From assembly GCA_036480375.1 (NCBI GenBank), contig JAZGGI010000022.1, positions 1 to 64,000 of the forward strand: a stretch of DNA of 64,000 nt, read 5' to 3'. Both the position numbers and the translations under genes were made by a program. Positions 36,848-63,553 of the stretch are shown piece by piece (positions within the stretch are counted from its first letter, which is position 1; every line of letters starts with the position of its first letter). The notes beneath the pieces are model-generated. The model did not search any database. It was not told the origin of the DNA and worked only from the letters and a program-made list of their open reading frames with translations. Source of the stretch: Candidatus Zixiibacteriota bacterium. GTDB taxonomy: Bacteria; Zixibacteria; MSB-5A5; GN15; JAAZOE01.

Positions 36848-36862
36848 TATATGATCCTCGGT

Positions 36863-37267: not shown

Positions 37268-37358
37268 ATTTTCCTGACCTATAGTCTATAACGCATTAAA
37301 AGAGACACCCTAATTATATTAAATCGGGAAAATTGTTAAAAAGTTGAGCTTATAAGAG

Positions 37359-37772: not shown

Positions 37773-37816
37773 GGTATACCCGCTTTGTATTAATCATTAA
37801 ATTGCTATCAAATTCA

Positions 37817-38602
37817 CTATGTCAGCTTTTGACCATCTATGATTAAAATCAAATTATCTTCTTTCTTGAAAATACCCTTTAGAAATCGCGATGCCTGAGT
37901 TTTTGCCTTTTCAGGCGCATTTTCAACCTGAGAACTCTTAAGCCTAACGACCTCCGTTACGGCATCGACCTTGATACCTGCCAAATTATTATTGTAATCC
38001 AGAACAATAATCCTCGTGTTTTTATCATCGTCTTGCTCCGGATACCCCATTCGAGTGCGTAAATCAATCACCGGAATGATGCTTCCCCTCAAATCGATGA
38101 CGCCTTTGACATAGACCGGGGCATCTACAATCTTTGTCACTTCCGCGGAACGGTTGATTTCTTTGATATTATTTATATCAATCCCAAACTCTTCATAATT
38201 GAGATTAAAACACACCAGTTGAATTTCCTCATCGCTCAGATTCTCATCTTGCGTGATTTCCGGTTCATTAATACCCTGATCGTCCGCACTTATATTATCG
38301 ACGGGCGCGGGGACAATTTCTTCCCTGACCATTTCTTCTCGCTCTTCAACGCTGGCCTTGTCGGTGATATTTTGATCGAACTCAGCGTGAATTATATCTT
38401 GTTCGGACTCAAAAACTCCTGATTCAATCGGTATCGATTCAATCTTCTTTTTGGTTTTTCCCGCTTTTGGAGCGGTTACCTTTTTCCTCTTTGCAATGGT
38501 TTTCGTCTCTTTCTTTCGCTCCTTAGCCGTTGAGGACTTTTTTCCTGTTGATTTTTTCCCGGTTTTCGATGGAATGGATATTGGTTTGGCTTTGCGTGAC
38601 AT
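37817..38602 (-). CDS. cheW: CheW-like coupling protein with lysine-rich N-terminal extension
   Basis: 261 residues. The first about 120 residues are disordered: a Lys/Ser/Thr-rich stretch (KTGKKSTGKKSSTAKERKK) and then an acidic stretch. The CheW domain covers about 125-261 (LVCFNLNYEEFGIDINNIKEI, VKGVIDLRGSIIPVIDLR, GIKVDAVTEVV). CheW links chemoreceptors to CheA. No CheA, CheB or CheR is in the window. The next upstream gene encodes a small protein that resembles a receptor tip, one base away, so the two may bind each other. The basic arm is unusual for CheW. Confidence 0.88.
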   Translation of the reverse strand: MSRKAKPISIPSKTGKKSTGKKSSTAKERKKETKTIAKRKKVTAPKAGKTKKKIESIPIESGVFESEQDIIHAEFDQNITDKASVEEREEMVREEIVPAPVDNISADDQGINEPEITQDENLSDEEIQLVCFNLNYEEFGIDINNIKEINRSAEVTKIVDAPVYVKGVIDLRGSIIPVIDLRTRMGYPEQDDDKNTRIIVLDYNNNLAGIKVDAVTEVVRLKSSQVENAPEKAKTQASRFLKGIFKKEDNLILIIDGQKLT

Positions 38603-38603
38603 T

Positions 38604-39002
38604 TTAATTGACCTGCTTCTGATTTTTTAATTTGGTTAACGTTTCCATTATTTCCTGGCTTAAATTATAGACATGTATTAAGGAGGCCTCGATTTTGTCA
38701 TAGGCTCCTCTTTTCTCAATCACTTCAGATGATGACGGAAGACTAAAGAGCATTGCCCGTTCATTTCGAAACGATTCCAAAACTTCCTTTACCCGCGCTG
38801 AGGATTGATTTGATTGAGAGATTAATTCAGTAAACTGGCTTTGCATTTCCTTAAGAGTAGCCTCCTTATTTTGAATACGGGCCACGGTAATCGCCAAATT
38901 TAGCGCCTGCAGTTTAACATCGTCAGCCAATGATTCAACCTGCTCGGCTAATTGTATCAAAACATCTTTCGATGATTTGTCGCTATTTAGTTCCACAAGC
39001 AT
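38604..39002 (-). CDS. Small helical protein resembling a chemoreceptor tip
   Basis: 132 residues, all helical, with no membrane segment. Residues about 25-46 (LADDVKLQALNLAITVARIQ) align by eye with the conserved hairpin tip of chemoreceptors ([20 protein letters not shown]). Flanking heptads (TLKEMQSQFTELISQS, ARVKEVLESF) continue as a coiled coil. It overlaps the upstream receiver gene by 20 bases and abuts cheW. A soluble mini-receptor that binds CheW is plausible; the alternative is a generic coiled-coil adaptor. Confidence 0.6.
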   Translation of the reverse strand: MLVELNSDKSSKDVLIQLAEQVESLADDVKLQALNLAITVARIQNKEATLKEMQSQFTELISQSNQSSARVKEVLESFRNERAMLFSLPSSSEVIEKRGAYDKIEASLIHVYNLSQEIMETLTKLKNQKQVN

Positions 39003-39354
39003 CCTCGGCCAGTAATTCTTTTACCTTATCTTTCAACGGGGCCAGGTCTGATGATTTCATCAAATAAGCGTCGGCCAGCCATGATTGAAAATCAGACTTA
39101 TAGGTCGAATAAGCGGAGTTCAGAATAATCGAACAATTAGCCTGCTTTTCTCTAAATTGCTTTAACAATTCGAGACCGTTGACATCCCCCAGTTCGATAT
39201 CGAGGATAATTATATCGGGAGAGAATTCCTCAGTTAAAGACAACGCGTCTTCAGCGTTCGATACCGCTTTGACGATATATCCCTCCGATTCGAATTCTTT
39301 CCGATATAAAACCTGAATATAGGTTTCGTCGTCAACTATCATTATTCTGGGCAT
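38983..39354 (-). CDS. Single-domain response regulator
   Basis: 123 residues from the ATG at 39354, which is preceded by GAGGAGG; a longer frame exists but lacks a ribosome site. Receiver motifs: acidic pair in MIVDDETYI, phospho-Asp in IIILDIELGDVNG, Ser/Thr position in ILNSAYSTY and a Lys position in YLMKSSDL (atypical, KS instead of KP). It overlaps the kinase-like gene upstream by 23 bases, so the two are coupled in translation and likely partners. Confidence 0.85.
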   Translation of the reverse strand: MPRIMIVDDETYIQVLYRKEFESEGYIVKAVSNAEDALSLTEEFSPDIIILDIELGDVNGLELLKQFREKQANCSIILNSAYSTYKSDFQSWLADAYLMKSSDLAPLKDKVKELLAEDACGTK

Positions 39355-41137
39355 TTTCAGCCTCCTCACGCCGGGGAAGATGGATATAGAGAATCGGACC
39401 GCTATGAGCGTCTGATTCAATTCCAAAAATCCCGCCGTGGTATTTAAGAGTTTCCTCAGCGACGATCAACGATAACCTTTTAGTGCTGTTACTGGCGCCG
39501 AAGTACAATCGGAGTTCTTTATTTATCTGACTTTCATTATTTTTGGAATTTTCAAAACTCAATTCCATCCGCAGAGTGTTATCGCAAACGCAGGTGCTTA
39601 CTATCGGAATCAAGGAACCATCAAAATCATTCATTATAACTTGAAATATCTGGTAAAAGGCATAAAGCATTTGATCGTAATTTCCCCAGAATGGAAGATT
39701 TGATTCACCCAATGACAATTTGGCCCGACTTCTGCCCTGCCCCAGCCTGACCGTAAGCATATTTATTGATTCTTTAATCAGTTGATTGAGATCGAGACAA
39801 GCATCCCTGGTTCGGGAAGCTTTGGAAAAATCAAGAACATCGGTCAATACTTCTTCGGCCCTTTGCGTTTCCGAGACAATAATATTTAGATATTCTGTAT
39901 CGGGGGAGTCGACCGGTTGGTGTTTATTCATCAAGTTAGCAAAACCGCCAATTATCGTCAGAGGATTGCGCAATTCATGTGCAACAGCCGCCGTTATTTC
40001 TCCAATAACCGACATCTTCTCGGCTTCAATTATTTGGTTCTGGGTTGCGGCCAACCTTTTATTCATGTCTTCCAATTCCAGAGCTCTATCTTTCAAATCT
40101 TTATATAAATACGAACGCTCCACCGCCGCCGCAGTTTGATCGGCAATTAATTTCAAAAAGCGCCTATCATCATCGGTTATGGTATCCCCCGTTATAGCGT
40201 TGTCAACGACTAAAAGTCCAATCGCCCGGTCTCGTGAGATTAAAGGAGTCGTCGCTACTCGGATATCACCCATTTTGCTTAAATATCGCCGGGTTATATC
40301 ATCAATTTCGTCGTCAGAATCAATGACAATTGATTCTTTTTCTTTGATGGCTTTTGTAAACAATGAATCCATCGTCAGATTGATTCGCAGGGCCCGAAAG
40401 CGATCATTGAGAGTACCGCCGTCCTGGAAATTATCACGATAAATCGACAAAGTCTCGACCAGGGTGCGATCATCGCTCTCCAACGCCGCCCAAATTTTCC
40501 CGGCCTCCTCGGCATCATTCGGACCGACCGCCAGATGCCCCTCCAGGAATTTTCCATCTTCATTCAACATAAATAAAAAGGCTCGGTTGAAACCCAATCC
40601 CTGCCGGGCTGTCACCGCGGTCAAAATAATATTCAGGATTTCATCGGTATCCCTTGCCGAAGCGACAGCCTGAGTAATTTGAGAGACAATTGATAACTCA
40701 TTTATCCGGTTGTTTAATTGCTGATGTTTTTTCTCCTGTTCGGTTACATCATCGATAATGCCGAAAACACCCGCTATATTTCCGCTTTTATCCCAGGCAC
40801 AGTTACATGATAGGCTGTAATAAGCAAAATGCCCGGTCAGGTTTGTGCCGGGGAAGCAATCAATCTTGAAATGTCCGTCGGTGTTGAACAGGTTTCGAAT
40901 ACGCTCTATAATAGTTGAGGAGAGGAAAAATTCCAGTTGCGCCAACGGTTTGCCATGAGCCTCTTCGACCGATTCAAAGCCAAAGATCTCAATCGCTCGG
41001 CGATTAAGCCTGGTCAGACAGCGAGACGTATCTATAAAAAACACTCCGACGCAATTGGCGTCAAAGCAGTTTTCCAGACATTGATGCTCACCCATATAGC
41101 TATCAAGTATGGGAATATTTTCTGCTTCAGTTAGCAT
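39332..41137 (-). CDS. PAS-GAF histidine kinase with degenerate ATPase domain
   Basis: 601 residues, cytoplasmic. A PAS domain lies at about 25-140 (VGVFFIDTSRCLTRLNRRAIEIFG) and a GAF domain at about 155-340 (FNRAFLFMLNEDGKFLEGHLAVG). HisKA is at about 375-440, with the H box VAHELRNPLTIIGGF. The C-terminal region should be a HATPase but lacks the N box (HExxxNxxxNA) and the DxGxG box; only the last strand segment (LSLIVAEETLKYHGG) is recognisable. It may bind rather than phosphorylate, or take phosphate from a partner. The receiver at 38983 is encoded in overlap. Confidence 0.82.
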   Translation of the reverse strand: MLTEAENIPILDSYMGEHQCLENCFDANCVGVFFIDTSRCLTRLNRRAIEIFGFESVEEAHGKPLAQLEFFLSSTIIERIRNLFNTDGHFKIDCFPGTNLTGHFAYYSLSCNCAWDKSGNIAGVFGIIDDVTEQEKKHQQLNNRINELSIVSQITQAVASARDTDEILNIILTAVTARQGLGFNRAFLFMLNEDGKFLEGHLAVGPNDAEEAGKIWAALESDDRTLVETLSIYRDNFQDGGTLNDRFRALRINLTMDSLFTKAIKEKESIVIDSDDEIDDITRRYLSKMGDIRVATTPLISRDRAIGLLVVDNAITGDTITDDDRRFLKLIADQTAAAVERSYLYKDLKDRALELEDMNKRLAATQNQIIEAEKMSVIGEITAAVAHELRNPLTIIGGFANLMNKHQPVDSPDTEYLNIIVSETQRAEEVLTDVLDFSKASRTRDACLDLNQLIKESINMLTVRLGQGRSRAKLSLGESNLPFWGNYDQMLYAFYQIFQVIMNDFDGSLIPIVSTCVCDNTLRMELSFENSKNNESQINKELRLYFGASNSTKRLSLIVAEETLKYHGGIFGIESDAHSGPILYIHLPRREEAENAQNNDS

Positions 41138-42003
41138 TATTCAATTCCCGAGCTTTTATCAAGATTGAGCATGGTTTCCTTATTATTACGCGTATATTGT
41201 TCAGAAACCAGGCGATCGATTTTCATTAATTTGTGCGTTATTAACGATATTTGACGAGCCCCGTCGACAATGGCATTGACGCGTTTGGTTATCTTTTCGG
41301 GCAAATCCGCCGACTCCAATTCTATGATCTGGGCGTTACCTACAATGGTGGACAAAGGATTGTTGACCTCATGATTGACTGATATGGCCAATTCACTGAC
41401 TGCCTTTAATTTCTCCTGAGCTATGAGTTGGGCCTGGGCTTCTTTTAGTCGAGTCTGGGTTTGTTCAAGGTACAGGTTTTTTTGTTCGAGCTGTTTCAAA
41501 TAATTTAGCCGCTCCAGCGATACCGCAATCTGGTCAGTAACTATTTCTAAAAATCGCCTCCGATTCGTATTAAAGGATTTGGAGGTACTGTCGGAAAAAC
41601 ACAAGACGCCTACTAATTCATCATCCATCAACAGGGGCAAAATTAAAATACCATCGTGGTGTTTACGTACATGGTCAATTCCCGGTTCACGACCCGGAAT
41701 ATACAGAGGCTGTTTTTGTTTTGCGGCCCAACCGGCCAATCCCATCCCCTGCCCGAACTGCAAAAAATCCAGGACATTAACCGTTTTACCGCGAGTAGCA
41801 ACCTCTTTGAGTTCGTTTTGAACTTTATTGAAAAGATACATAGTGGCAGAGTCGAACGGAATTATTTGGGCTATTAAATCCAGAATTTTTAATAGAGATT
41901 TTCTGCTCGTCGGTTTATCCCGCAGGATTTTGGAAATCTCGGCTACCAGCTCGATTTTACTCCAAAAATTTGAAACCTCTTCTTTTATCTCAAGTGTGTT
42001 CAA
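41137..42003 (-). CDS. GAF protein with HisKA dimerisation domain but no ATPase domain
   Basis: 288 residues. A GAF domain covers about 20-180 (IIPFDSATMYLFNKVQNEL, FGQGMGLAGWAAKQKQPLYIPG). A coiled coil follows, then a HisKA-like helix pair with H box SVNHEVNNPLSTIVGN at about 210. The protein ends about 70 residues later, before any ATP-binding domain. It shares one base with the start of the next kinase gene. It might dimerise with that kinase or act as a phosphotransfer protein. Confidence 0.8.
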   Translation of the reverse strand: MNTLEIKEEVSNFWSKIELVAEISKILRDKPTSRKSLLKILDLIAQIIPFDSATMYLFNKVQNELKEVATRGKTVNVLDFLQFGQGMGLAGWAAKQKQPLYIPGREPGIDHVRKHHDGILILPLLMDDELVGVLCFSDSTSKSFNTNRRRFLEIVTDQIAVSLERLNYLKQLEQKNLYLEQTQTRLKEAQAQLIAQEKLKAVSELAISVNHEVNNPLSTIVGNAQIIELESADLPEKITKRVNAIVDGARQISLITHKLMKIDRLVSEQYTRNNKETMLNLDKSSGIE

Positions 42004-42004
42004 T

Positions 42005-42619
42005 CTATCTGCCTCTTAGATGTGGCTTAATTTCGGTAACAATTTCGGATGCCGCTTTATCTTCCAACTTTCGCAAAAATCTTATTTTTTGAGGGGCTGA
42101 CATATGTAGATCAGGATCATCGGGGTAATCTTCAGCCAACTGCCATTGTCTTGGACCGGAAATTCTCGTTTTCAATTTCCAGGTGCTGATAATTTTACCG
42201 CGATTTAAATCAATAAAGCTAAACATGCCGTCAACCTGGCCCTCGACAATATAACGATTCAATATGTAGGGAATTGAAGTGCGCTTGCGAGTTACAATTT
42301 CTCTATTATCCAACCGCAAATATATTAAATACCTCGAGCCGCATTCGTGTCCCCATTCCAATAATCGTTCGAGATTAAACCTTTCATTCGGAGGAGTCGG
42401 CAAAGTGCTGTCTTCCGCGGAGACAATCACTTTGAGATTCATTTGCATCGACAGCTTTTCGACCAACCGGTCAATTAATGCCAGGTCATAAATATCGCTT
42501 TTTTGCTTTTCTATAACAATCGATATGGTTCTCTGGTCCGATTGTGCCACTGCCACCGCATTGACACAGAGTACGACCATTATTAGCGCCGTTAATATTT
42601 TAGGCGTCATCGGTTTCAT
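42005..42619 (-). CDS. Exported protein of unknown function in the motility run
   Basis: 204 residues with AAGGAAA before the ATG. A signal peptide (about 8-25, ending AVAVAQS) predicts periplasmic location. The mature part (RTISIVIEKQKSDIYDLALID, then WGHECGSRYLIYLRLD) suggests an alternating beta/alpha fold like other periplasmic proteins that probe envelope components. No family recognised. It overlaps the PilZ gene upstream by 20 bases and lies one base from the GAF gene downstream. Confidence 0.65.
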   Translation of the reverse strand: MKPMTPKILTALIMVVLCVNAVAVAQSDQRTISIVIEKQKSDIYDLALIDRLVEKLSMQMNLKVIVSAEDSTLPTPPNERFNLERLLEWGHECGSRYLIYLRLDNREIVTRKRTSIPYILNRYIVEGQVDGMFSFIDLNRGKIISTWKLKTRISGPRQWQLAEDYPDDPDLHMSAPQKIRFLRKLEDKAASEIVTEIKPHLRGR

Positions 42620-43121
42620 TTAATTTCCTTGAGTAAATATAATTATTGAGCAAATTCCTGAGCCGCTCGGTGAATGACGACAGATCAGTGGATAGCTGTC
42701 CCAATTCGATTTGACTCATATTGTCGTTGAGTTTTTCGCGGGTAATCGACTCCACGCCGACAAGGTATCCACCCGAATCCATCTCAACCCGCTTGACTCT
42801 ACCCAGGATATTATCAATCGTTTCGCATCCTTCGAGGCGCAGGGACATCGACAGAATGGTATTTTCCAAAAGGGGTTGTTCGATAAACATCAGTATCCCG
42901 CCAGCCGAAATATTGATGATTTCGCCCTCGCCGGAAGGACCGTCGCCCGTGGGCCAAAACCCATCGTCCGATTTTATAGATTGATACGAAACCGGTGCGT
43001 CAATATCGATGCGAATAAAGCGACGACGATTATCCTCCATAATCTTGAAGGGCGCGCGAATCTCAAAATCGACCGTTGTCGTTGACGGTAACCCTTTACC
43101 GGTGTGTTTGGTTGCTGACAT
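42600..43121 (-). CDS. PilZ domain protein
   Basis: 173 residues from the ATG at 43121, which has AAAGGAG six bases upstream; an earlier start inside the previous gene is unlikely. The c-di-GMP signature is present: an RRRFIRID arginine run at about 32-40 and INISAGG about 45 residues later. A C-terminal helical tail (LSSFTERLRNLLNNYI) follows. It probably binds cyclic di-GMP and tunes motility. First of three PilZ genes in a row. Confidence 0.88.
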   Translation of the reverse strand: MSATKHTGKGLPSTTTVDFEIRAPFKIMEDNRRRFIRIDIDAPVSYQSIKSDDGFWPTGDGPSGEGEIINISAGGILMFIEQPLLENTILSMSLRLEGCETIDNILGRVKRVEMDSGGYLVGVESITREKLNDNMSQIELGQLSTDLSSFTERLRNLLNNYIYSRKLNETDDA

Positions 43122-43122
43122 C

Positions 43123-43887
43123 CTAAACTCCTTTATCCTTTTTTTCACTTATTTTCGTTAAATATTTTCCAAGCTCTTGTTGCTTTTGGTTTGTAAAAGC
43201 AAGCATTATGGGCGGTAATGCCGTCCTCGCCTGCCGGGAAAAATGATTATGTAAATTGTCAGCGGTTATGAACATTATCCCGCAACTGCACCCGCTTTTG
43301 CCATATCCCAATTTAGCCGACCAGCGCACTTGTCCGAATACAAACAACGGACCGGCTAACATGTCGATTTCGAGATTTAATAAGAAATATGAACCGACAT
43401 CCGCTTGCAGTGAAGTTGATAGCAATATTCCTCCACTTGAGAAATCAACCGTCTGACATTTCTTCCATCTCAAATGACTGAATTGCCCCGACGACATACT
43501 CAAATCGGAAATCGGAGTATAAACTGTTTCAATAATAAGCGGTAATCTCTGGGTTAATCGACGATTCGCCTTGATAATATCACTATCAATTATAAGAATG
43601 CGAGCGGCATTATTATCCGCGATATAATCGGCTCCGGATTCATACAAAACACCATTTAGAACAAAATTAACCAATACTCGCGCCGATGTTCTTAAATATC
43701 CGTTACCATCAATATTCTTCGGAAGATTTATTTGCAATTGATTATCATCGACCGATAATATTTTTGCCGTATAGACGGTATTTCCATTATTCGTACCGGG
43801 GAGCTTAATAGTAATATCTTTCTGTATCAGCAACGGCAGCTCTTCAATCAGATGACGATTAAGCTTTATTCCATTCCCGGTCGTCAT
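43123..43887 (-). CDS. YcgR-like flagellar-brake/PilZ protein
   Basis: 254 residues in two parts. The N-terminal about 105 residues resemble the YcgR (PilZN) domain (IQKDITIKLPGTNNGNTVYTAKI). The PilZ domain follows, with NRRLTQRLPLI as the arginine motif and VDFSSGGILLS as the second motif. YcgR-type proteins slow flagellar rotation when cyclic di-GMP is high. The layout fits a motor-brake role beside fliA and flhG. Confidence 0.87.
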   Translation of the reverse strand: MTTGNGIKLNRHLIEELPLLIQKDITIKLPGTNNGNTVYTAKILSVDDNQLQINLPKNIDGNGYLRTSARVLVNFVLNGVLYESGADYIADNNAARILIIDSDIIKANRRLTQRLPLIIETVYTPISDLSMSSGQFSHLRWKKCQTVDFSSGGILLSTSLQADVGSYFLLNLEIDMLAGPLFVFGQVRWSAKLGYGKSGCSCGIMFITADNLHNHFSRQARTALPPIMLAFTNQKQQELGKYLTKISEKKDKGV

Positions 43888-43888
43888 G

Positions 43889-44644
43889 TTAAATTATCCC
43901 CTTTTGCCTCATCTCCAGTTGCTCATTGAATAACTCGGATACAAGTTCGTTCTGTCGGCGATCATAAAAATCTTTGAGATTGTCAGGAATACAGGATAAT
44001 TCAGGATTGCGGAGAAACTTCGGCAAGTCTTCGGCCAAAATAAATTCCACGCCCGTCATCCATTTCCTCTTGTCGCTATGACGAGCCTGCCGACAAACGG
44101 CAATTACATATGATGGCAGATTTTTTATATTGATATGCGTCAGGTCAATTACCATTAGCGTATTAAGATTGATTTTCTCTTCAGTCGTCATCAATAAGCC
44201 GCCGGCCGAGATATTTATTGTTTTGCTGTCGAGATATTTGACTTTAGAGATATCCAGCGTTTCTTTAATAGGGCGTTTCGGCACGAAATATTTTACCGGC
44301 ATCATTTTATCAAGTCGTACAAATCTCCTCCGCTGCAATCTCTGAACTCGCCCCAGTTCCGTTAGGTGCATTGTTTCGGGCGATTTTGGATGTAGTTCTT
44401 TGAGACGAGCCCTAAACGAATAGGCGGCATCGGCGCGGGTAAAGCGAACCGAAACAATCCTGTTGTTGGCCAGAAGACTATCGCCGTACATAAACTCGGG
44501 ACGACTTATAATCAGTCTTCTATTTTCTATGTCCATAACACGGCACGAATATATACCCTCTTTACCGGTTTCACCCACGGCTATTTGCAGGCGTTCCCAC
44601 ACCTGGACCTTATTCGCTGTGGTTTTTTTCGTCGATAATGCCAT
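43889..44644 (-). CDS. YcgR-like flagellar-brake/PilZ protein
   Basis: 251 residues, the same two-part layout as the neighbouring PilZ gene. The N-terminal domain includes WERLQIAVGETGKEGIYSCRV. The PilZ domain has the QRRRFVRLDKM arginine motif and TINISAGGLLMT. The separation from the next gene is one base. The three PilZ genes probably arose by duplication and now differ in sequence. Confidence 0.87.
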   Translation of the reverse strand: MALSTKKTTANKVQVWERLQIAVGETGKEGIYSCRVMDIENRRLIISRPEFMYGDSLLANNRIVSVRFTRADAAYSFRARLKELHPKSPETMHLTELGRVQRLQRRRFVRLDKMMPVKYFVPKRPIKETLDISKVKYLDSKTINISAGGLLMTTEEKINLNTLMVIDLTHINIKNLPSYVIAVCRQARHSDKRKWMTGVEFILAEDLPKFLRNPELSCIPDNLKDFYDRRQNELVSELFNEQLEMRQKGII

Positions 44645-44647
44645 TGA

Positions 44648-45820
44648 CTATTTTGCCTCAGCCAGATTTTTCTTTCCTTGTTTCATCGCCATTTCAAGTA
44701 TTTTCCGAGCCAGAGCGGTACGTATTCTATCGCCGCGAATCTCGTTAATAAATTCCTGCCCTGTTTTAATAGTGTTGTTGAAATACTGGCGAGCCGTGTC
44801 ATGATCACCAATCTGACGGGATAATTCGGCGATCAAATATGCCGCTTGAAGAGTCGGATTCCCTTTTGCAATCTGTTTACCGGATTCAAAGGCGGCGATA
44901 TAGTATTTAACCGCTATTCGTATCGCTTCCATTTCGGAACAGGCGATACCGTCCCAATAACGTCTCAACCCGGATAAAAATTCGGAAAAACTCCCGCAGT
45001 TATAAAATGCTTCACCGGAACCTGAACCTGCCACTACACCCGCGGATGCTTTTGATACCTTCAATTGCACCTTGAGATCGTTTAAGATAGCCGTTCCGTT
45101 TGAACCCAGATCTTTCAGGCTTTCGATTAATTGAGTATAATTCTCCTTTTCGGATTCAATCTCGCTATTGCTTCCGGCCACCTGGACGCAATAAGCATCG
45201 ACTGCGTTTATCAGGTATTCGGTGTTTCGAGATAGTCCCGTCATCCAGTTATTCAAATCATTAATGGCTCTTTCAATGTCATCGATATGCATCGGTCGAG
45301 GGGCTTTATCCACGGTCGCATTGCCAGCATTCATAAAGCGGAACATCCAGGCGATTCTCAGATAAAATCTTCCCAGATCAAGATGAGCCGGGTGATCATA
45401 GAGTAATTCATCATAAGCGGCCAAAGACATCTTCAAAATGGCGCTTTCATCGGGATATTTTTCATGATCGATTGACTGACCGATCACATTAACAAATGAA
45501 TCACCGGAGGAAAGCTCTTCCATATGATGCTCTTTAATAACTTTCTGGCGGTAGATCCTGAAATTATTATCTTTACTCCATTCCTTGTAAGCGTTGTTAA
45601 ATTCACGAGTGTAGAAGCACTTGGAACAAGTGACCGTGAAAAACAGTAAGGGATGATACTTTTGATAACGCGGATTGCGCCATTTGATGATAGTCGGACA
45701 AAAATCCGTCTGTCGTTCCCCCTCGGTATATGCGCCGACTCTAATGGTCTCAAACTCATTAATCGTCCCGCATACTGGGCATTCAATTTTCGTTAAAAAT
45801 AAAGGTGAATCCATGCCCAT
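44648..45820 (-). CDS. DUF2225 family zinc-finger-containing protein
   Basis: 390 residues. Two Cys pairs near the start (ECPVC at about 13 and TCSKC at about 63) suggest a zinc-binding head, as in the DUF2225 family. The following about 300 residues are helical, TPR-like repeats (DLGRFYLRIAWMFRFMNAG, AAYLIAELSRQIGDHDTARQYF). The function is unknown; the gene occurs with PilZ and flagellar genes here, which suggests a motility-linked role. It precedes the three PilZ genes. Confidence 0.8.
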   Translation of the reverse strand: MGMDSPLFLTKIECPVCGTINEFETIRVGAYTEGERQTDFCPTIIKWRNPRYQKYHPLLFFTVTCSKCFYTREFNNAYKEWSKDNNFRIYRQKVIKEHHMEELSSGDSFVNVIGQSIDHEKYPDESAILKMSLAAYDELLYDHPAHLDLGRFYLRIAWMFRFMNAGNATVDKAPRPMHIDDIERAINDLNNWMTGLSRNTEYLINAVDAYCVQVAGSNSEIESEKENYTQLIESLKDLGSNGTAILNDLKVQLKVSKASAGVVAGSGSGEAFYNCGSFSEFLSGLRRYWDGIACSEMEAIRIAVKYYIAAFESGKQIAKGNPTLQAAYLIAELSRQIGDHDTARQYFNNTIKTGQEFINEIRGDRIRTALARKILEMAMKQGKKNLAEAK

Positions 45821-45850
45821 TTTTTATTCCTTTCTTTTCTCCGGAAATAT

Positions 45851-46291
45851 TCAGGCATTTCCAACGGCTGATATCAATTCCAATTCATCTTCTGTCAACG
45901 GGAGCTGCTCCAGTAATTCATGATTTGACTTTCCCTCCGCCATTAATCTGCGCGCCTGTCGATAAATTTCTCGCCTGTTTTTCTGCCGGTCGTCAGATGT
46001 AAATACAGGAATTATATTTTCTTCATGCCCCGCTTGCTTTTCGACGATTTCATCTAAGGGAGAGGCCGCACCGCGGGATTTTTTGAGCGACATAAATTCC
46101 GGATTGGGCTGAGTTAAGGCATCAATTTTTTGTCGTGTCCGCGTCTTTACGCGATTGGTGTTATCTTCTGTCGCATTCCCATCTTTGCGAGCCTGGCGAC
46201 GATTGACCAGCAGTAAAACAAGCATGGCCACCATCAAATACCCGGCCAGGTTCAGGCCGAATTCAATTAACACATCCTGTGAAAAATCCAT
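45851..46291 (-). CDS. Small single-pass membrane protein in the flagellar run
   Basis: 146 residues. One hydrophobic helix at about 8-29 (FGLNLAGYLMVAMLVLLLV) is followed by a basic linker and a C-terminal helical motif (RREIYRQARRLMAEGKSNHEL, then LPLTEDELELI). That motif resembles the DUF2802/DUF6115-type proteins found in flagellar operons. It probably sits in the inner membrane with its tail in the cytoplasm. Confidence 0.65.
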   Translation of the reverse strand: MDFSQDVLIEFGLNLAGYLMVAMLVLLLVNRRQARKDGNATEDNTNRVKTRTRQKIDALTQPNPEFMSLKKSRGAASPLDEIVEKQAGHEENIIPVFTSDDRQKNRREIYRQARRLMAEGKSNHELLEQLPLTEDELELISAVGNA

Positions 46292-46310
46292 TTTGTTACT
46301 TCCTTTTTTC

Positions 46311-46604
46311 CTATCCTGTTAAATCAAGGTGACCCGACTGCTCTTTATCGTTTTCGGCGGTCTCATCATTTTTCTTTTTATCCCGCTTCTTTTCTTTTTT
46401 CTCTTTTTCCTTATCGCCTCTAATAATTACCATATCCGTTTCCTGTGTCTCACGTGTTCGTTCCATTTCGGCGGCGGCTTGTTCTTTGAGAGCGTCGGCA
46501 ACCTGCCTCTGCCCCATCTCGCCGTGAGATTTCTGGATCTGGTTCATCCTTTCGGCAGCCTGGGTCTTGGCCAGGTTATCCTGCAAATCGATGGGACGTA
46601 CCAT
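46311..46604 (-). CDS. Small highly charged protein of unknown function
   Basis: 97 residues. The first 50 are helical (NLAKTQAAERMNQIQKSHGE). The C-terminal half is almost all Lys, Glu and Asp (DKEKEKKEKKRDKKKND), so probably disordered. It is conserved in place between fliA and a membrane protein gene. No family recognised. Its reading frame lies cleanly between neighbours on the same strand. Confidence 0.6.
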   Translation of the reverse strand: MVRPIDLQDNLAKTQAAERMNQIQKSHGEMGQRQVADALKEQAAAEMERTRETQETDMVIIRGDKEKEKKEKKRDKKKNDETAENDKEQSGHLDLTG

Positions 46605-46634: not shown

Positions 46635-47507
46635 TTAGGTGAGACCGAATTTCTCGCGAACCATTCCTCGCAACTTAAGAACCGCCTTGGTGTGAATCTG
46701 AGAAACCCGGGACTCCGATATTTTCATTACTTCGCCTATCTCTTTCAGCGTCAATTCCTCGTAGTAATACAAAGCGATCACTAATTTTTCCTGCTCAGTC
46801 AATTTCTCTATGGCATACACTAAAAACGCCTGGAGCTCGCTCCGCTCAAGCTTTTTGAGCGTCGTATTGGCTTTTCCATCTTCGACAGTCTCAATGCGCG
46901 GAACCTGGCGATTATCTTCCTCCCTGAAAATCAATTCATCCAGAGATAGAAGAGCCGTTTTGGAAACATCTTCCAGGGCATAATGCAATTCCTGTACATC
47001 AACTTTCAGGCTCTTAGCCAGTTCATCATCGTTGGGCGCCCGGCCCATTTTATTTTCAAAATCCAATAGCGCCCGCTCAATTTCTCTAGCCTTAGCTCGG
47101 GTCGATCTTGGCACCCAGTCGAGAGCCCGCAATTCATCAAGAATAGCTCCTCTTATCCGGGGCACGGCATAAGTCTCGAACTTGACGCCCCGGTCGGGAT
47201 CAAATTTCTTGAAAGCCTCCGTCAGGCCGATAACTCCGGTATTGATCAGATCGCTCAATTCCACCGACCGAGGGAAATTTATCGCCATCCGTCCGGCGAC
47301 ATTTCGCACCAGAGGCAAATAACGATTCAAGAGCTTGCGGCGGATTTCAGGATCCTGACACTTTTGGTATCGGAGCCATTCTCTTCTGGCTTCCGCGTCG
47401 CGCTTTGCCTTTTCCTTCTGGGCGGCGGTTTTCTTGTCATCCTTCGGCTTAGCTTCTGCGGCCTTGGCAATCCCGCGTTGTCTTTTATCCTTGACTGTGC
47501 TAATCAT
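46635..47507 (-). CDS. fliA: Flagellar sigma factor FliA (sigma-28)
   Basis: 290 residues, with a Lys/Ala-rich N-terminal extension of about 40. Sigma region 2 is at about 60-130 (LPLVRNVAGRMAINFPRSVELSDLINTGVIGL), region 3 in the middle (LRALDWVPRSTRAKAREIERAL), and region 4 ends with the LTLKEIGEVMKISESRVSQIHTKA helix-turn-helix. It would direct RNA polymerase to late flagellar genes. It follows flhG by seven bases. No anti-sigma factor FlgM is visible. Confidence 0.95.
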   Translation of the reverse strand: MISTVKDKRQRGIAKAAEAKPKDDKKTAAQKEKAKRDAEARREWLRYQKCQDPEIRRKLLNRYLPLVRNVAGRMAINFPRSVELSDLINTGVIGLTEAFKKFDPDRGVKFETYAVPRIRGAILDELRALDWVPRSTRAKAREIERALLDFENKMGRAPNDDELAKSLKVDVQELHYALEDVSKTALLSLDELIFREEDNRQVPRIETVEDGKANTTLKKLERSELQAFLVYAIEKLTEQEKLVIALYYYEELTLKEIGEVMKISESRVSQIHTKAVLKLRGMVREKFGLT

Positions 47508-47514
47508 TTGTCTG

Positions 47515-48363
47515 CTATTCCTTTATATCGGCCCCTTGCGGGCTTAAGCTTAAGGGTTTGCTATCAAAACTTTCAGTGATTTCAGATTCCGCCAGTAGCC
47601 CGGTAAGAGCCATAAATTGGCGGGCGCTGCGGCAATCGGGGGCGAAATCGAAAACGCTTTTTTGCATCGCCACCGAATCAACCAGGGTATTATCGTTTGG
47701 AATCCAACCCAGATAGGATGGATTTATCTTAAGGAATTGATTTGTAATCGCCGTAAACTTCCGGTAAATATATTTAATATCCTCCAACCGATCTTCGCGA
47801 TTGATAAGAAGAGCTACTTCGAGATTGGAGTTATTGGTAATCAGGATTTTATAAAGGGCGTAGGTATCGGTCAAAGATGTCAATTCGGGAGTCGTGATTA
47901 ATATATTTTTGTCAACGGCGTTTAGTATCAGATAGGTTTGAGGCAATATTCCGGAAGCCGTATCGATAATTATTAAATCATAATTGTCAAGCATCTCCCG
48001 GAGGCGAACCATTGATTTTGCGAGGGCGTTAATTTCCGGTAATTTGATTTCCGTCTTAGCGCCGGCCGACGGCAGGATATCCAACCTATCACTGGCTTTG
48101 ATTACGCAATTTTCAATCTCAGTAATGCCGCCACAAGCATCACCCCAACCATAATCCGAGGCAACATTTGATAGCAAAGCGATATTGCCCATTTGAAAAT
48201 CGCCATCGACCAATAGCACTTTTTTACTTTCAGACAGCGCCCGGGCAAGATTATATGATATGATTGATTTGCCCACTCCGCCTTTGCCCGATGCGACTGA
48301 TATCATTCCGGCTGTGAGAAATCCCGGCTCGGGCGGTTTTTTAAGGTTCAAACGATTTGACAT
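47515..48363 (-). CDS. flhG: MinD-like ATPase FlhG
   Basis: 282 residues from the ATG at 48363, preceded by GGAGGG. A deviant Walker A, ASGKGGVGKSIISYNLA, opens the domain, with DTASGILPQ as the later signature. FlhG controls flagellar number and placement together with FlhF, whose gene lies directly upstream. The length is usual for FlhG/FleN. Confidence 0.93.
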   Translation of the reverse strand: MSNRLNLKKPPEPGFLTAGMISVASGKGGVGKSIISYNLARALSESKKVLLVDGDFQMGNIALLSNVASDYGWGDACGGITEIENCVIKASDRLDILPSAGAKTEIKLPEINALAKSMVRLREMLDNYDLIIIDTASGILPQTYLILNAVDKNILITTPELTSLTDTYALYKILITNNSNLEVALLINREDRLEDIKYIYRKFTAITNQFLKINPSYLGWIPNDNTLVDSVAMQKSVFDFAPDCRSARQFMALTGLLAESEITESFDSKPLSLSPQGADIKE

Positions 48364-48364
48364 C

Positions 48365-49486
48365 TTAGAATCCCTCCCCTCTGCCGAAGAGTGATTGCAC
48401 CAACGGTCGATATTCCGGATAAGCGTCAAATTGTCCGGCTTTGGTACCCGCGCCGACCATTGCAATCGGTAATCCGGTTTGTATCGACGCCGTCAAAATT
48501 CCTCCCAGGCGATGGGTTTGATCGGTCATAGTCACGGCCAGTTCGGTAAAACCAAGCGGTTGATACGCCAAAAGACATTCCATAAGATCCGATGCCCGGA
48601 ACCACGCCGGGAAAATTCCAACCACCCGATCGGCTCTTATGCGAGCGAGTTTTTCGGCATACAAGGCGATTGATTGAGTGTCGTATCGATTTAGGGCGGG
48701 AGTATCAATGATTGTTATTTTGTCTTTGCCCAGTGAATCAAGAAGCCCTTTATCGACATGCCGCGGCATGTCGAAGTAATCAACGTCGAGTATATCAGCG
48801 TAAATATGAAACTCCTCCGGTGCGGAGACTTTCACTTGATCGAGAGACGTCAAGTTTACCGGTAATTTTTCATTAGCAATCAGATGACCGGCCAGACGGC
48901 CCATAGTTGATGTTTTGCCGGAGCCGGAAGGACCGACAAAAACAATTCTATCACCGATTTTAAACCGCTGTTCGGATTTTCGAGAAGGCAAATTTTCGCA
49001 TATTAAATCAATCGCCATCGAACGGAGATCATCAAATTCGGCTGATTCCGACATTTTGTCCCGCAATTTGTCTGTTATCTCGCAGGCGTAATATTCCGGG
49101 ATATCGGCATCGATCATTGCCGAGAATATTCTTGAAAAATTCCGGGAATAGGTTTGCCGTCTTATAGGCATCTGGAATAAATCCATGAGGAAATCGAGCT
49201 TATGTGTAATGGCTTCGGCCGGAAATGAGGCATTCGAGTTTTTGATCGCTTTTGTGGGAATATCATGAACCGGTCTTTGAACCTGGATTGTCTTAGGTTC
49301 AGACAGAGTCGCTCGGTCGCCCGATTTATCGACGCAAGCTGTTACTTCAACTCGACCGCCCATCTGTCTTTGCCGGTCGGTTTCAATTTTTCGGGTTCGG
49401 AGAATTACCGCTTCCCCACCCAACTCGCTGCGAACTTTTTTCAAAGCTCCCGCCACCGTATCGGCGGCAAATGATTTAACTATCAT
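48365..49486 (-). CDS. flhF: Signal-recognition-like GTPase FlhF
   Basis: 373 residues. The N-terminus opens IVKSFAADTVAGALKKVRSELGGEA, the FlhF start. A basic region follows, then the GTPase: G1 GPSGSGKTSTMG, the DVDYFDMPR segment, and G3 IIDTPAL. FlhF places the flagellum at the pole in many bacteria. It overlaps flhA by 11 bases and abuts flhG. Confidence 0.93.
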   Translation of the reverse strand: MIVKSFAADTVAGALKKVRSELGGEAVILRTRKIETDRQRQMGGRVEVTACVDKSGDRATLSEPKTIQVQRPVHDIPTKAIKNSNASFPAEAITHKLDFLMDLFQMPIRRQTYSRNFSRIFSAMIDADIPEYYACEITDKLRDKMSESAEFDDLRSMAIDLICENLPSRKSEQRFKIGDRIVFVGPSGSGKTSTMGRLAGHLIANEKLPVNLTSLDQVKVSAPEEFHIYADILDVDYFDMPRHVDKGLLDSLGKDKITIIDTPALNRYDTQSIALYAEKLARIRADRVVGIFPAWFRASDLMECLLAYQPLGFTELAVTMTDQTHRLGGILTASIQTGLPIAMVGAGTKAGQFDAYPEYRPLVQSLFGRGEGF

Positions 49487-51551
49487 TTTGCATCTCCACT
49501 AATCCGCATGAGACTAATTCTATGTCCCTGTGAATTTCATTGTAAGAGACCACGGTCAACTGCGGCAGGGATACTTCCATCAGCCTGCGGAAAGCCAATC
49601 TTATATTGGGCGAGGTCAGGCAAATCGGATGATGTCCGGCCGTGGATAGCTGCTCCGCCTGTTTGACCGTTTCATTTATCAGCCGCTCGCTAACCTCCGG
49701 CGGCATAACTATCATTATTCCTTGTTTGGTGTTCTGAATGGAATCGGCCAGGAGTTGCTCAACGCTGGGCGATAATGTGAAGCAATGTATTTTGCCCTTA
49801 TCATCTTTGAGCATATCCGATATGCGCCGTCTGAGAGAAATGCGGCAATATTCCGAGAGAACCTCGGCATCTTTGGTGATCGAGGCATAATCGCCGACCG
49901 TTTCCATGATCGTTCCCAGATCTCGAATCGGGACTCTTTCCGATAGCAGCATTTGCAGAATTTTATGAATCGTCGGCAGCGAAAGGACTTCCGGAACGAC
50001 GCCTTCAACCAGAGTCGGCTGATCTTCTTTCAAAGTATCCAGGAGATGTTTAATATCCTGTCGGGAAATAATCTCGCTGGCATTGCATTTGATAATTTCC
50101 GTTAGATGGGTTGCCAATACGGCCGACGGTTCAACGACGGTGTATCCCTTAGCCTCGGCCGTTTCCTTAAGATTGGGCACAATCCACCGCGCTTTGAGTT
50201 GGAAGGCCGGTTCGACGGCATCAAACCCCTCAATTTCATCTTCAATATATCCGGGATTAATCGCCATTATGTGATCGGGCATCAATTCGGCTTTGGCAAC
50301 GACGAGACCTTTAATCTTGAAGGCATATTCGCTGGGCTGGAGTTGAACATTATCACGTATCCGAATGGCTGGAACAATCATCCCCATATCTATCGCCAAT
50401 TGTTTTCGGATGGTGCTTATTCTATCGAGAAGGTCGCCGCCCTGATTAGTATCGACCATCGGTATCAATCCATATCCGATCTCAACTTCCAGGGTATCGA
50501 CTTTGAGAAGGTCTTCGGTTCTTTCTTCGACCAATTTTTCTTCGGATTGTTCTTTAGCCAGTTTCTTCTGTTTCGCCTGTTCTTTGTTACCTTTCTCGAT
50601 CATGAAGGCGACAACCCCCAGAACCGTACCAAGAATTACAAACGGCAGAGTGGGCATACCGGGAACTACTCCGAATATCAGGATAACGCCGGAAGCCACC
50701 ATAATCGCTCGCGGCTGTAATCCGAGCTGTTTGGTCAAATCCTTACCCATATTGTTATCAGCCGCGGAGCGGGTAACGATAATACCAGCCGCCGTGGAAA
50801 CGATTAAGGCCGGTATCTGCGTCACCAGTCCATCACCGACCGATAACAGGGTATAAGTCTTGAGAGCCTGAGAAACGCTGAGATCGCGCATGACAATACC
50901 GACAATGAAACCGCCAATGACGTTAATCACGGTTATCAGGATACCGGCAATGGCGTCTCCGCGCACAAACTTGGAGGCGCCGTCCATCGCTCCGTAAAAA
51001 TCCGCTTCCCGGCTGATTTCCAATCGTCTCTTTCGAGCGTCGTCATCGGATATCAACCCGGCGTTCAAATCGGCGTCAATGGCCATTTGTTTTCCGGGCA
51101 TGGCATCGAGAGTAAAACGGGCCGCTACCTCAGAAATTCGGGTAGCGCCTTTCGTGATGACGACAAACTGGATAATAACCAGAATGAAAAAGATGATGAA
51201 ACCAACAACGTAATTGCCTTTGACGACAAAATTACCAAATGAATTGATGACCTCACCGGCATATCCCTCGCCCAGAATTAATCGTGTCGAAGCTACATTG
51301 AGAGACAATCGCACCAGCGTAACAATTAAAAGCATCCCCGGGAAAACCGAAAGATCAAGCGGGCTGGTGACATAGAGCGTGGCGATTATAATCACAATTG
51401 AGAAGGCGATATTAAACGCCAGAGCAAAGTCGAGCAATCCGGGCGGTATTGGTAAAACCAGAACAGCGATAACCGCGACAACCAATCCGGCCATAGCTAT
51501 ATCACTATGATTAGTGATCGTTTCCAACAGGGAGGTTTTTTGCTCAGGCAC
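49476..51551 (-). CDS. flhA: Flagellar export protein FlhA
   Basis: 691 residues. Eight transmembrane helices fill about 16-310, with the conserved FHIPEP-type cytoplasmic loop (FTLDAMPGKQMAIDADLNAG) between them. A linker and the four-part cytoplasmic domain follow. FlhA forms the nonameric export gate and uses the proton gradient. It overlaps flhB by eight bases and flhF by eleven. The order flhB-flhA-flhF-flhG is common. Confidence 0.97.
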   Translation of the reverse strand: MPEQKTSLLETITNHSDIAMAGLVVAVIAVLVLPIPPGLLDFALAFNIAFSIVIIIATLYVTSPLDLSVFPGMLLIVTLVRLSLNVASTRLILGEGYAGEVINSFGNFVVKGNYVVGFIIFFILVIIQFVVITKGATRISEVAARFTLDAMPGKQMAIDADLNAGLISDDDARKRRLEISREADFYGAMDGASKFVRGDAIAGILITVINVIGGFIVGIVMRDLSVSQALKTYTLLSVGDGLVTQIPALIVSTAAGIIVTRSAADNNMGKDLTKQLGLQPRAIMVASGVILIFGVVPGMPTLPFVILGTVLGVVAFMIEKGNKEQAKQKKLAKEQSEEKLVEERTEDLLKVDTLEVEIGYGLIPMVDTNQGGDLLDRISTIRKQLAIDMGMIVPAIRIRDNVQLQPSEYAFKIKGLVVAKAELMPDHIMAINPGYIEDEIEGFDAVEPAFQLKARWIVPNLKETAEAKGYTVVEPSAVLATHLTEIIKCNASEIISRQDIKHLLDTLKEDQPTLVEGVVPEVLSLPTIHKILQMLLSERVPIRDLGTIMETVGDYASITKDAEVLSEYCRISLRRRISDMLKDDKGKIHCFTLSPSVEQLLADSIQNTKQGIMIVMPPEVSERLINETVKQAEQLSTAGHHPICLTSPNIRLAFRRLMEVSLPQLTVVSYNEIHRDIELVSCGLVEMQNDS

Positions 51552-52623
51552 GCGCTACTCCTCCCTTGCCCTTTAGTTTATAGATATATGCCAGAACTTC
51601 AGCTATAGCGCGATAGAGTTCGGCCGGCACATACGAACCTATATCAACCATCTTGAACAATGATCTTGCCAACGGCTTATTTTCAACAATCGGGATATCA
51701 TATTTTTTGGCGATTTGTTTAATCTTCCTGGCGATCAGTCGTTGCCCCTTGGCAACCACCATAGGAGCCGCCATTACATCGGAATCATATTTAAGAGCAA
51801 CAGCAATAAGAGTCGGGTTGGTCACGACCACATCAGCTTCGGGTACTTCAGAAATCATTCGGCGCCTCGCCATATCCCTCTGCACCTGCTTAATGCGGCC
51901 TTTGAGAACCGGATTTCCATCCGTATCTTTCATTTCTTCGCGGACTTCCTGCTTGGTCATCTTTTGCTGATTGGCAAAATCCCAACGCTGGAACGCAAAA
52001 TCGAACAGAGCCAGGATAAACAGTACCGCGGATAATTTTAGCGCCAGAACCAGGGCCAGTTTACCCAGATTGATTCCGAGTTGACCCGTCGCTTTGGTTC
52101 CCACCACAAGGATATCGGGCATCCATCCCGAGATGGTTGTATAAGCGACGATCGCGATTAAAATCGTTTTGACAACATCTCGAACTAACTGAACCATCGA
52201 CCGCTTGGATAGTAGTCGGCCAAAACCTTTAATGATATTGAGCTTATCGAATTTGGGCTCAATTGTTTTGAAAGACATCATGAATCCTACCTGCGCGACG
52301 TTAATTCCGAAGGCAATAATTGCTACAATCAAAAGAACCGGCCCGACAATAGCGGCGAAATTCATCACTTTATTGGAAAATATTTTATGAAAGCTGTCGG
52401 GAACAAGAGTCATATTGGGCGCCTCGGTGAACGTATGGCGAATCAAGTCACCCATCTGGTTAAAAATAATGGGACCCATCAAAAACAGAGTCATAAAGGC
52501 AAAACTGACGATAATCACCGAGTTCAATTCCATTGAACGGGCGACCTGTCCTTTTTCACGGGCTTTCTTTAGCTTCCGTGGTGTTGCCTTCTCTGTTTTT
52601 TCCTGTGATGGTTTATCAGCCAT
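51544..52623 (-). CDS. flhB: Flagellar export switch protein FlhB
   Basis: 359 residues. Four transmembrane helices at about 30-210 follow a charged N-terminus (KTEKATPRKLKKAREKGQVARS). The cytoplasmic domain includes the autocleavage loop, which reads N269-P-T-L where nearly all FlhB proteins have NPTH. The missing histidine may slow or alter self-cleavage, which controls the switch from hook to filament export. The rest (LIAVALKYD, GQRLIARKIKQIA) is normal. Confidence 0.95.
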   Translation of the reverse strand: MADKPSQEKTEKATPRKLKKAREKGQVARSMELNSVIIVSFAFMTLFLMGPIIFNQMGDLIRHTFTEAPNMTLVPDSFHKIFSNKVMNFAAIVGPVLLIVAIIAFGINVAQVGFMMSFKTIEPKFDKLNIIKGFGRLLSKRSMVQLVRDVVKTILIAIVAYTTISGWMPDILVVGTKATGQLGINLGKLALVLALKLSAVLFILALFDFAFQRWDFANQQKMTKQEVREEMKDTDGNPVLKGRIKQVQRDMARRRMISEVPEADVVVTNPTLIAVALKYDSDVMAAPMVVAKGQRLIARKIKQIAKKYDIPIVENKPLARSLFKMVDIGSYVPAELYRAIAEVLAYIYKLKGKGGVARA

Positions 52624-52625
52624 GT

Positions 52626-53423
52626 CTAAATATTCCCGCTCACTTCAAACAGTTTCATCAAATGCGCCATCTCCTTATTGAGGGCGGCGTTGAAATTGCG
52701 CAGGATCATTGAAAAAGCCGGTAGCGACAGGCCTATCAAAAGCAATCCTGTAAAAATTTTCAGAGGAAAGCCCACAATAAAAATATTCATCTGGGGCATG
52801 GTGCGGGCCAAAACGCCCATCGATACTTCAACCAGAAACACCGTCATCATTACCGGAGCGGCAAATTTGACGGCCAAAATAAACGCGAACGAACTGTATT
52901 TTATTATCCATTCGCCGACCGCCCCCGATGGTGTTGATAATCCCAGGGGAATCAGTTTGAATGAATCAACCAAACCGCCGATAATGGCATGGTGTCCGTT
53001 GATGAAAAGAAAGATTAGAGTCGCCAGCAAAAACCACAACTCGCCAAGTATTGAAACCGGCCTGGGTGAGTTGGGATCAACGACATTGACCATCGCGAAT
53101 CCGATTTGATAACCGACTACCGAACCGGCCAACCTCACGCCAATGAACAGTATGGAAAAAATGAATCCGATAAATACTCCAACCAGTATTTCTTTAAGAC
53201 AAAGAATCAGTAAATCGATCAGGCTTTCAGTCAGTGGAAATTGAGCGTTGCTCATAATCGGCAGAAGAACGGTAGCGAACCCTAAAGACATTCCCACCGC
53301 GAGTTTTTTGGGAATTGATCGATGCGAAAATATCGGGGCGGCGACCATAATCCCCCCTATACGCATCATCAATAGAACAAATAATTGAATTTTTTCTGCG
53401 CCAAAGTTGACAAAATCCAGCAC
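52626..53423 (-). CDS. fliR: Flagellar export protein FliR
   Basis: 265 residues from the GTG at 53423, which follows AGGTGG at a good distance; a GTG nine bases upstream is possible. About six hydrophobic segments and the KLAVGMSLGFA and GFALVNV-like (IGFAMVNVVDPNS) regions mark FliR, a core part of the export gate with FliP and FliQ. It is separated from fliQ by about 180 bases holding a terminator and a sigma-54-type promoter. Confidence 0.95.
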   Translation of the reverse strand: MLDFVNFGAEKIQLFVLLMMRIGGIMVAAPIFSHRSIPKKLAVGMSLGFATVLLPIMSNAQFPLTESLIDLLILCLKEILVGVFIGFIFSILFIGVRLAGSVVGYQIGFAMVNVVDPNSPRPVSILGELWFLLATLIFLFINGHHAIIGGLVDSFKLIPLGLSTPSGAVGEWIIKYSSFAFILAVKFAAPVMMTVFLVEVSMGVLARTMPQMNIFIVGFPLKIFTGLLLIGLSLPAFSMILRNFNAALNKEMAHLMKLFEVSGNI

Positions 53424-53462
53424 TCTTCCCACCTACATTAAAGGTTATCACCCTCACGAATT

Positions 53463-53476
53463 GCAACCGGTGTGCC
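53463..53476 (-). promoter_or_regulatory. Sigma-54-type promoter before fliR
   Basis: The minus strand reads CGGCACACCGGTTGCA. GG of the -24 box lies at 53475-53476 and GC of the -12 box at 53463-53464, exactly ten bases apart. The match to TGGCACG-N4-TTGCA is strong. The expected start is near 53452, about 29 bases before the fliR GTG. The site lies right after a terminator hairpin, so fliR and its followers could start here. Confidence 0.65.
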
Positions 53477-53539
53477 GGATTGAAACAGCCACCCCACAAA
53501 GATTAAGTCGTTGTCTATGATTTACTTAAGGAGATATTT

Positions 53540-53567
53540 AAAAGGCCGCTCATATAAATGAGCGGCC
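53540..53567 (-). terminator. Terminator between fliQ and fliR
   Basis: On the minus strand GGCCGCTCAT and ATGAGCGGCC pair perfectly around a TTAT loop, followed by TTTTAAAT. It lies 39 bases past the fliQ stop. Confidence 0.8.
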
Positions 53568-53605
53568 GGACAGGAAGAGATTGCCTAACGGCATAGGAAT
53601 AATTT

Positions 53606-53875
53606 TCAGGCAGCCAAACTGGGTATTGATTCGAACAATCGCGTCGTAAAATCTACGATCAGATTAATCATCCAGGGTAAAAAGATCAGCAGGGCGGTGG
53701 CCACCGCAACGATTTTGGGAATAAAGGTCAGTGTCATCTCATGAACCTGCGTTACGGCCTGCAGTAAAGAGATAATTAAACCTACAATAAGTCCGAAAGC
53801 TAACATCGGCGCCGATACCATTAGGGTCAGCATAATTGCCTCTCGGCCCAGTGATAATACAAATTGTGGAGTCAT
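53606..53875 (-). CDS. fliQ: Flagellar export protein FliQ
   Basis: 89 residues, full length, with two hydrophobic helices (about 16-42 and 52-77). The motif LLQAVTQVHEMTLTFIPKI is the family signature. FliQ packs around FliP and FliR in the export gate. It starts seven bases after fliP. Confidence 0.96.
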   Translation of the reverse strand: MTPQFVLSLGREAIMLTLMVSAPMLAFGLIVGLIISLLQAVTQVHEMTLTFIPKIVAVATALLIFLPWMINLIVDFTTRLFESIPSLAA

Positions 53876-57815: not shown

Positions 57816-57821
57816 TTATCC

Positions 57822-63283: not shown

Positions 63284-63325
63284 ACATGTACCTCACAAAA
63301 ATCTATTTGTCCGAATCCTGAATGA

Positions 63326-63339
63326 GCAAGGCCCGTGCC
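63326..63339 (-). promoter_or_regulatory. Sigma-54-type promoter before the motE-like gene
   Basis: The minus strand reads CGGGCACGGGCCTTGCTC. GG (-24) lies at 63338-63339 and GC (-12) at 63326-63327, ten bases apart, matching GGCACG-N4-TTGC closely. The expected start is near 63314, about 30 bases before the ATG. It would drive the visible flagellar run to the fliQ terminator. The remainder of 63340-63553 shows no gene. Confidence 0.65.
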
Positions 63340-63553
63340 CGTGTGAGCCTAAGCAATTTATCATATTGTTACTGTGCGACTTACGCTGATTCTTGACTTA
63401 ATTTTACGAGGTTAATAAATCCCCAAATCGGAAAAAATATCCCAATGGGTGTGGAAATTAATTCAAGGAGGGAGTGTTTCAGTTTTTGCTGAAAACTATT
63501 ACAATGCACTAATCTGAGATGAGCTATTATTCGGTTTCATCCTTAAAAAAGTG

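Follow-up and report, generated by a model that had tools for sequence, protein, structure and literature searches.

A predicted sigma-54 enhancer-promoter cassette between fliQ and fliR in the Zixibacteria

Genes and sites around the fliQ-fliR gap

The window, by which we mean the whole 64-kb stretch of Zixibacteria DNA that was analyzed, carries on its minus strand a long series of flagellar genes in which fliQ and fliR are separated by a gap of 173 bp. The gene on the upstream side, fliQ, is the last of an operon of hook, C-ring and export genes. Read 5' to 3' on the minus strand, the gap contains, in this order, a U box, a hairpin, a D palindrome, a TTTCA box and a predicted sigma-54 promoter:

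53606..53875, minus strand: fliQ (TIGR01402, 108.7 bits, above the cut-off)
53573..53602, minus strand: U box TTATTCCTATGCCGTTAGGCAATCTCTTCC, putative activator enhancer, ending 96 bp ahead of the -24 G
53544..53567, minus strand: intrinsic-terminator-like hairpin GGCCGCTCAT-TTAT-ATGAGCGGCC, between the U and D boxes
53504..53528, minus strand: D box, palindrome TAAGTAAATCATAGACAACGACTTA, ending 27 bp upstream of the -24
53481..53485, minus strand: TTTCA box, just upstream of the -24, in 7/7 genomes of the window's family and 24/45 others
53462..53477, minus strand: predicted sigma-54 promoter CGGCACACCGGTTGCA, with -24 GG and -12 GC
52626..53432, minus strand: fliR, with homologs in 56/60 relatives
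46635..52623, minus strand: flhB, flhA, flhF, flhG (MinD-like) and fliA, the rest of the fliR transcription unit
35402..46604, minus strand: PilZ, HisKA/GAF kinases, receiver proteins, CheW and FapA, downstream of fliA

The promoter stands, as a first-pass annotation of this DNA had proposed, at the head of a near-continuous run of genes that leads from fliR through flhB, flhA, flhF, flhG and fliA into regulatory genes. This order is conserved in seven of the eight relatives checked, and in the eighth fliR-flhB-flhA was seen. The genes at 35402..46604 are co-directional with the fliR unit and mostly abutting, the largest gap between them being 91 bp. Alignment with relatives indicates that the second GTG (53423) is the fliR start that best fits the homologs. 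Elsewhere in the window, what looks like a gap from flgE to fliL (57587-57821) is occupied by a short protein, FlbD/SwrD-like by eye (MITVTRLNGEELVINSDLIEFIEATPDTIVSLVTGKKI...), that fell under the ORF length cut-off, and 18633-20543 encodes an ankyrin-repeat protein of secreted type in which five stretches match Ank_2 strongly; the shorter ORF 3146-3592 is by eye similar to it.

Sigma-54 promoters have the near-consensus TGGCACG-N4-TTGCW, and their transcripts usually start about 12 nt after the GC. The site CGGCACACCGGTTGCA, with its GG at 53476/53475, its GC at 53464/53463 and exactly 10 bases between them, departs from this near-consensus only at T and G outside the GGCAC and TTGC cores. 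From the usual geometry the transcript of the fliR unit is predicted to begin at ~53451, which would give it a ~28-nt leader up to the GTG at 53423. The genome also has both partners of a sigma-54 system, rpoN (RpoN DBD, E 3e-58; found too in 55/60 relatives) and NtrC-type activators, with 19 strong full Sigma54_activat domains in all. The earlier recognition of an exact GG-N10-GC site of the sigma-54 type before fliR is thus sustained. That spacing alone, however, occurs 405 times in the 64-kb window (0.32 per 100 bp per strand), and it is so common that as a sole criterion, which is how the first-pass annotation used it, it proves little. The core GGCAC-N5-TTGC, searched on both strands, has only two copies in the window, the fliR site and one at 63340, each of them 45-60 bp ahead of the first gene of a flagellar operon.

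The hairpin had been described beforehand as a perfect 10-base stem with a T tract after fliQ, and so it is: the 10-bp stem is perfect and is followed by the tail TTTTAAATAT, and its folding energy is -20.2 kcal/mol (z = -6.4, with an equally stable fold in 0/200 shuffles). Among terminator-like sites on the minus strand between 50 and 64 kb it ranks first. It combines the stable GC-rich hairpin and the U tract of an intrinsic terminator, the tract (UUUUAAAUAU) being short, with 4 T before the sequence becomes A-rich. The interval first assigned to the element ran from this hairpin to about the predicted start at ~53451 and missed the U box at 53573-53602.

Conservation of the gap in the Zixibacteria

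Comparison with its relatives places the window in Candidatus Zixiibacteriota. A GGCA[CT]...TTG site precedes fliR in all 52 distinct fliR upstream regions of the Zixibacteria type, a set delimited by gap length and similarity in which a few MAGs are labelled otherwise. Its distance to fliR is nearly always 32-61 bp, the two exceptions being 125 and 138 bp. Conservation in relatives that keep the gap had been named at the outset as the test of the promoter, and the promoter withstands it in 52/52 regions, with a -12 that is often GA or GT outside the window's family. The comparison outside the group comprised 46 loci from the Latescibacterota, Nitrospinota, Desulfobacterota, Bacillota and others; fliQ and fliR abut or overlap (-16 to 45 bp) in 40 of these, and none of the six with a longer gap matches the promoter motif. 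Its sequence conservation across genomes places the fliR promoter site far beyond chance.

Between families, identity along the gap is near background except for peaks at U, D, TTTCA, -24 and -12. An EM search over 49 fliQ-fliR gaps yielded the two longer motifs, U with 30 bp (t.tTTTCC.aca...ctGGtAA.atTTTCC; LLR 637 versus 94 shuffled) and D, a 25-bp palindrome (TAA.t..tTg.....cAa..a.TTA; LLR 328 versus 41 shuffled), and these LLRs overstate independence because mononucleotide shuffles served as controls and the genomes are related to one another. In simplified form, U reads TTTCC-N9-GG.AA..TTTTCC and D reads TAA..TTG-N5-CAA..TTA, with IHF-like half-sites. Both keep their distance from the promoter: U lies 96 bp from the -24 in 28/49 gaps and 92-99 bp in 44/49, and D lies 27 bp from it in 37/49 and 25-28 bp in 47/49. 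The window's own copy of U is a weaker one, at 20.5 bits versus up to 39. Genome-wide, the exact U pattern recovers mostly fliR copies, because the spacer and half-sites vary. As to D, the core consensus of IHF is CAANNNNTTR, which the half-sites of the box match (the right half is CAANNNNTTA), and the genome has two genes of the HU/IHF family; by position and resemblance, D is a putative IHF site.

The TTTCA box has a narrower distribution. The pattern TTTCA-N4-GGCACA-N4-TTG is present in 36/60 relatives, usually once per genome and mostly at fliR, and the reversed-pattern control gave 0 matches in the 60 relatives. We rejected the idea that TTTCA belongs to sigma-54 sites in general, since its occurrence goes with fliR and none of the hook, flgB and flgF promoters of the same genome has it.

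The hairpin behaves differently from the promoter. In the window's family 6/7 genomes have it at the same place, with differing sequence, whereas most other Zixibacteria lack it, and over its interval the cross-family identity is at background. Being conserved in the window's family only, the terminator is therefore an accessory that lies outside the core device. The promoter, which is conserved phylum-wide, would accordingly be old and the terminator younger and family-specific.

Two further observations concern the surroundings of the promoter. The predicted 5' leader (window 53430-53452) is conserved beyond a ribosome-binding site as CGATTAACCC..TGTAGG, the window itself reading GATAACC...TGTAGG; the idea that its conserved CGATTAA marks a sigma-28 promoter was rejected, as by eye no -35 lies at the distance required. 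Around the fliR promoter of family f3, near-invariance extends over a longer stretch, which includes GGGTT/AACCC inverted repeats.

Other flagellar promoters and a candidate activator

The second copy of the sigma-54 core lies at the head of the hook operon, whose first gene is at 62555-63283 and which runs from 63283 down to fliQ. Its promoter has the same two boxes:

63325..63340, minus strand: second sigma-54 promoter GGGCACGGGCCTTGCT, which heads the hook operon and scores highest in the 91-kb contig
63359..63383, minus strand: D box belonging to this promoter, 19 bp ahead of its -24
63430..63459, minus strand: U box belonging to this promoter, 90 bp ahead of its -24

Orthologs of this promoter retain the -24/-12 site in 18/19 relatives, with a -12 GC in 17 and GA in one. 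A de novo search on the hook promoters, independent of the fliR set, regained the U palindrome as GGAAAA.TTTTCC, ending 89-91 bp before the -24, and the D matrix derived from fliR places the hook-promoter D 18-20 bp before it. Two more promoters of the genome have the arrangement, P-flgB (C3:124921) with U/D spacings of 90/19 and P-flgF (C3:116149) with the 96/27 of the fliR promoter. When U, D and promoter were combined in a composite score, just four sites over 126 kb of the genome reached values of 40-44, namely the fliR, hook, flgB and flgF promoters, and shuffled sequence gave at most 21.8. The occurrence of the same U and D boxes with matching spacings at these four promoters points to one shared regulon. 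On another contig (C20:72819), a sigma-54-like site (AGGCACAGGTGTTGC) near another sigma-54 activator gene has a D-like palindrome and no U box, which is consistent with an architectural D and a flagella-specific U.

Among the activators is a receiver-AAA-Fis protein with the GAFTGA motif (contig C3, 126864-128222), whose gene has a histidine kinase, motA, motB and flgB as neighbors. A single strong ortholog occurs in each of 24/26 genomes, with the kinase adjacent in 24/24 and motA beside it in 21/24, and from this context the protein is the likely activator for the U box.

The fliR promoters differ among families in one respect. Their -12 is GC in the window's family (7/7) and in four other lineages, and the 45 sites outside the window's family include 35 with GA and 6 with GT. 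For about a dozen of the GA/GT genomes we read the hook promoter as well, and there it keeps the -12 GC. A change in RpoN specificity as the explanation of TTGA was rejected, because the -12 helix-turn-helix of RpoN shows no difference between groups and the hook promoters keep TTGC; genome-wide counts of TGGCAC-N5-TTGC versus TTGA were too near background to be informative. A -12 swap at one promoter, in many genera and with the reading helix of RpoN unchanged, is a natural experiment on the strictness of the -12.

A proposed common switch and its alternatives

The gap between fliQ and fliR is very probably, to judge from its sequence, a complete sigma-54 enhancer-promoter cassette that belongs to one switch together with the hook, flgB and flgF promoters. 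The binding, bending, termination, start site and activator identity that we infer can be put together as follows. At the U box, some 100-130 bp ahead of the -24, a flagellar NtrC-type activator would bind, while at the D box, 27-52 bp ahead of the -24, a protein of the IHF/HU family would bend the DNA, and the activator would then remodel sigma-54 RNA polymerase at the -24/-12, giving a transcript of fliR-flhB-flhA-flhF-flhG-fliA and the genes that follow. In the window's family the hairpin between U and D would end or trim transcripts arriving from the upstream operon, so that the output of the fliR operon would come mainly from its own promoter; and because the grammar of U, D and sigma-54 site is common to hook, flgB, flgF and fliR, we propose that all four units answer one switch.

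The first-pass annotation had supposed that fliR and the genes after it are controlled apart from the structural genes. This stands for the point of initiation, which would be independent, and is not supported for the regulator, since both operons share the sigma-54 promoter and the U and D boxes. The sites thus point to a fliR-flhB-flhA-flhF-flhG-fliA unit that is initiated independently and yet lies in the sigma-54 regulon of the structural genes; what is separate about it is the initiation point, with its dosage and geometry, and not evidently the regulator. An initiation of its own, a geometry shifted by 6-8 bp, a terminator (in the window's family) and an altered -12 (in other families) would tune amount or timing under one switch. 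A bolder reading, which we offer tentatively and think rather less probable than its opposite, is that the two geometries of U, D and sigma-54 site (90/19 and 96/27) exist phylum-wide and that the GA/GT retuning of the -12, specific to fliR and present in most of the phylum with RpoN unchanged, sets a level or time different from that of the hook operon. With equal reserve, this retuning may amount to a leakier or weaker opening that affects the export-gate, FlhF/FlhG and FliA genes under a shared activator.

That terminator and promoter place fliR to fliA in a regulon distinct from that of the structural genes is, in our judgment, unlikely. The hairpin is real and the gap has its own promoter, the U/D geometry at fliR is 6-8 bp off that of P-flgB and the hook promoter, and other families have a different -12 dinucleotide; but the upstream operon has the same type of sigma factor with the same U and D boxes, flgF has exactly the 96/27 geometry of fliR, and most relatives are without the terminator. 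Somewhat less likely still is that outside the window's family the fliR site is a relic, or a site of some other regulator, rather than a working sigma-54 promoter. The 35 GA and 6 GT among the 45 sites there would suit such decay, as would the GC kept by hook promoters of the same genomes and the likeness of the RpoN helix-turn-helix between groups, yet the -24 GGCA[CT], the TTG and the U and D spacings, which a relic would lose, are still conserved, and the window's own site, having GC, is unaffected. It is very improbable that the conserved blocks are an RNA element (a structured fliQ 3' UTR or fliR leader) instead of DNA sites, for although U and D, as inverted repeats, could form paired RNA and the predicted leader CGATTAACCC..TGTAGG is conserved too, the blocks keep fixed distances from the -24/-12 and recur upstream of unrelated operon heads, the sequence between them is not conserved, and an Rfam search of the gap gave no match.

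Among the papers that our literature search listed, none dealt with flagellar regulation in the Zixibacteria, and the text of a survey of sigma-54 regulons (PMC12316311) does not mention them. The defined sites, their spacings and the candidate activator of the proposed common switch describe the flagellar regulon of a phylum that is known chiefly through metagenome-assembled genomes.

Comparable systems are known elsewhere. In Geobacter sulfurreducens the expression of fliL-fliM-fliN-fliP-fliQ-fliR-flhB is linked to RpoN, and, within the relevant part of that study, the genes from fliL to flhB are under one site with no internal fliQ/fliR promoter reported, unlike the window (PMC2725144). The class III/IV flagellar promoters of Caulobacter crescentus use sigma-54, IHF and FlbD at ftr enhancers (PMC3096577), and the predicted cassette of U, D and promoter here would follow a like three-part logic of NtrC-type enhancer, IHF and sigma-54. 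FlbD is regulated by FliX (PMC3096577), whereas the candidate activator here has an adjacent histidine kinase, and the Zixibacteria cassette, in contrast to Caulobacter, splits fliQ from fliR. The FlgSR, FlrBC and FleSR two-component sigma-54 systems of polar flagellates resemble the present case in a kinase and a receiver-AAA-Fis activator linked to flagellar genes, in FlhF/FlhG and in sigma-54 at the rod/hook operons (PMC7064773). There the export-core proteins, FliR, FlhB and FlhA among them, come earlier, and activation of the rod and hook genes waits until their assembly has been sensed, whereas here the export-core and hook/rod operons have one enhancer grammar.
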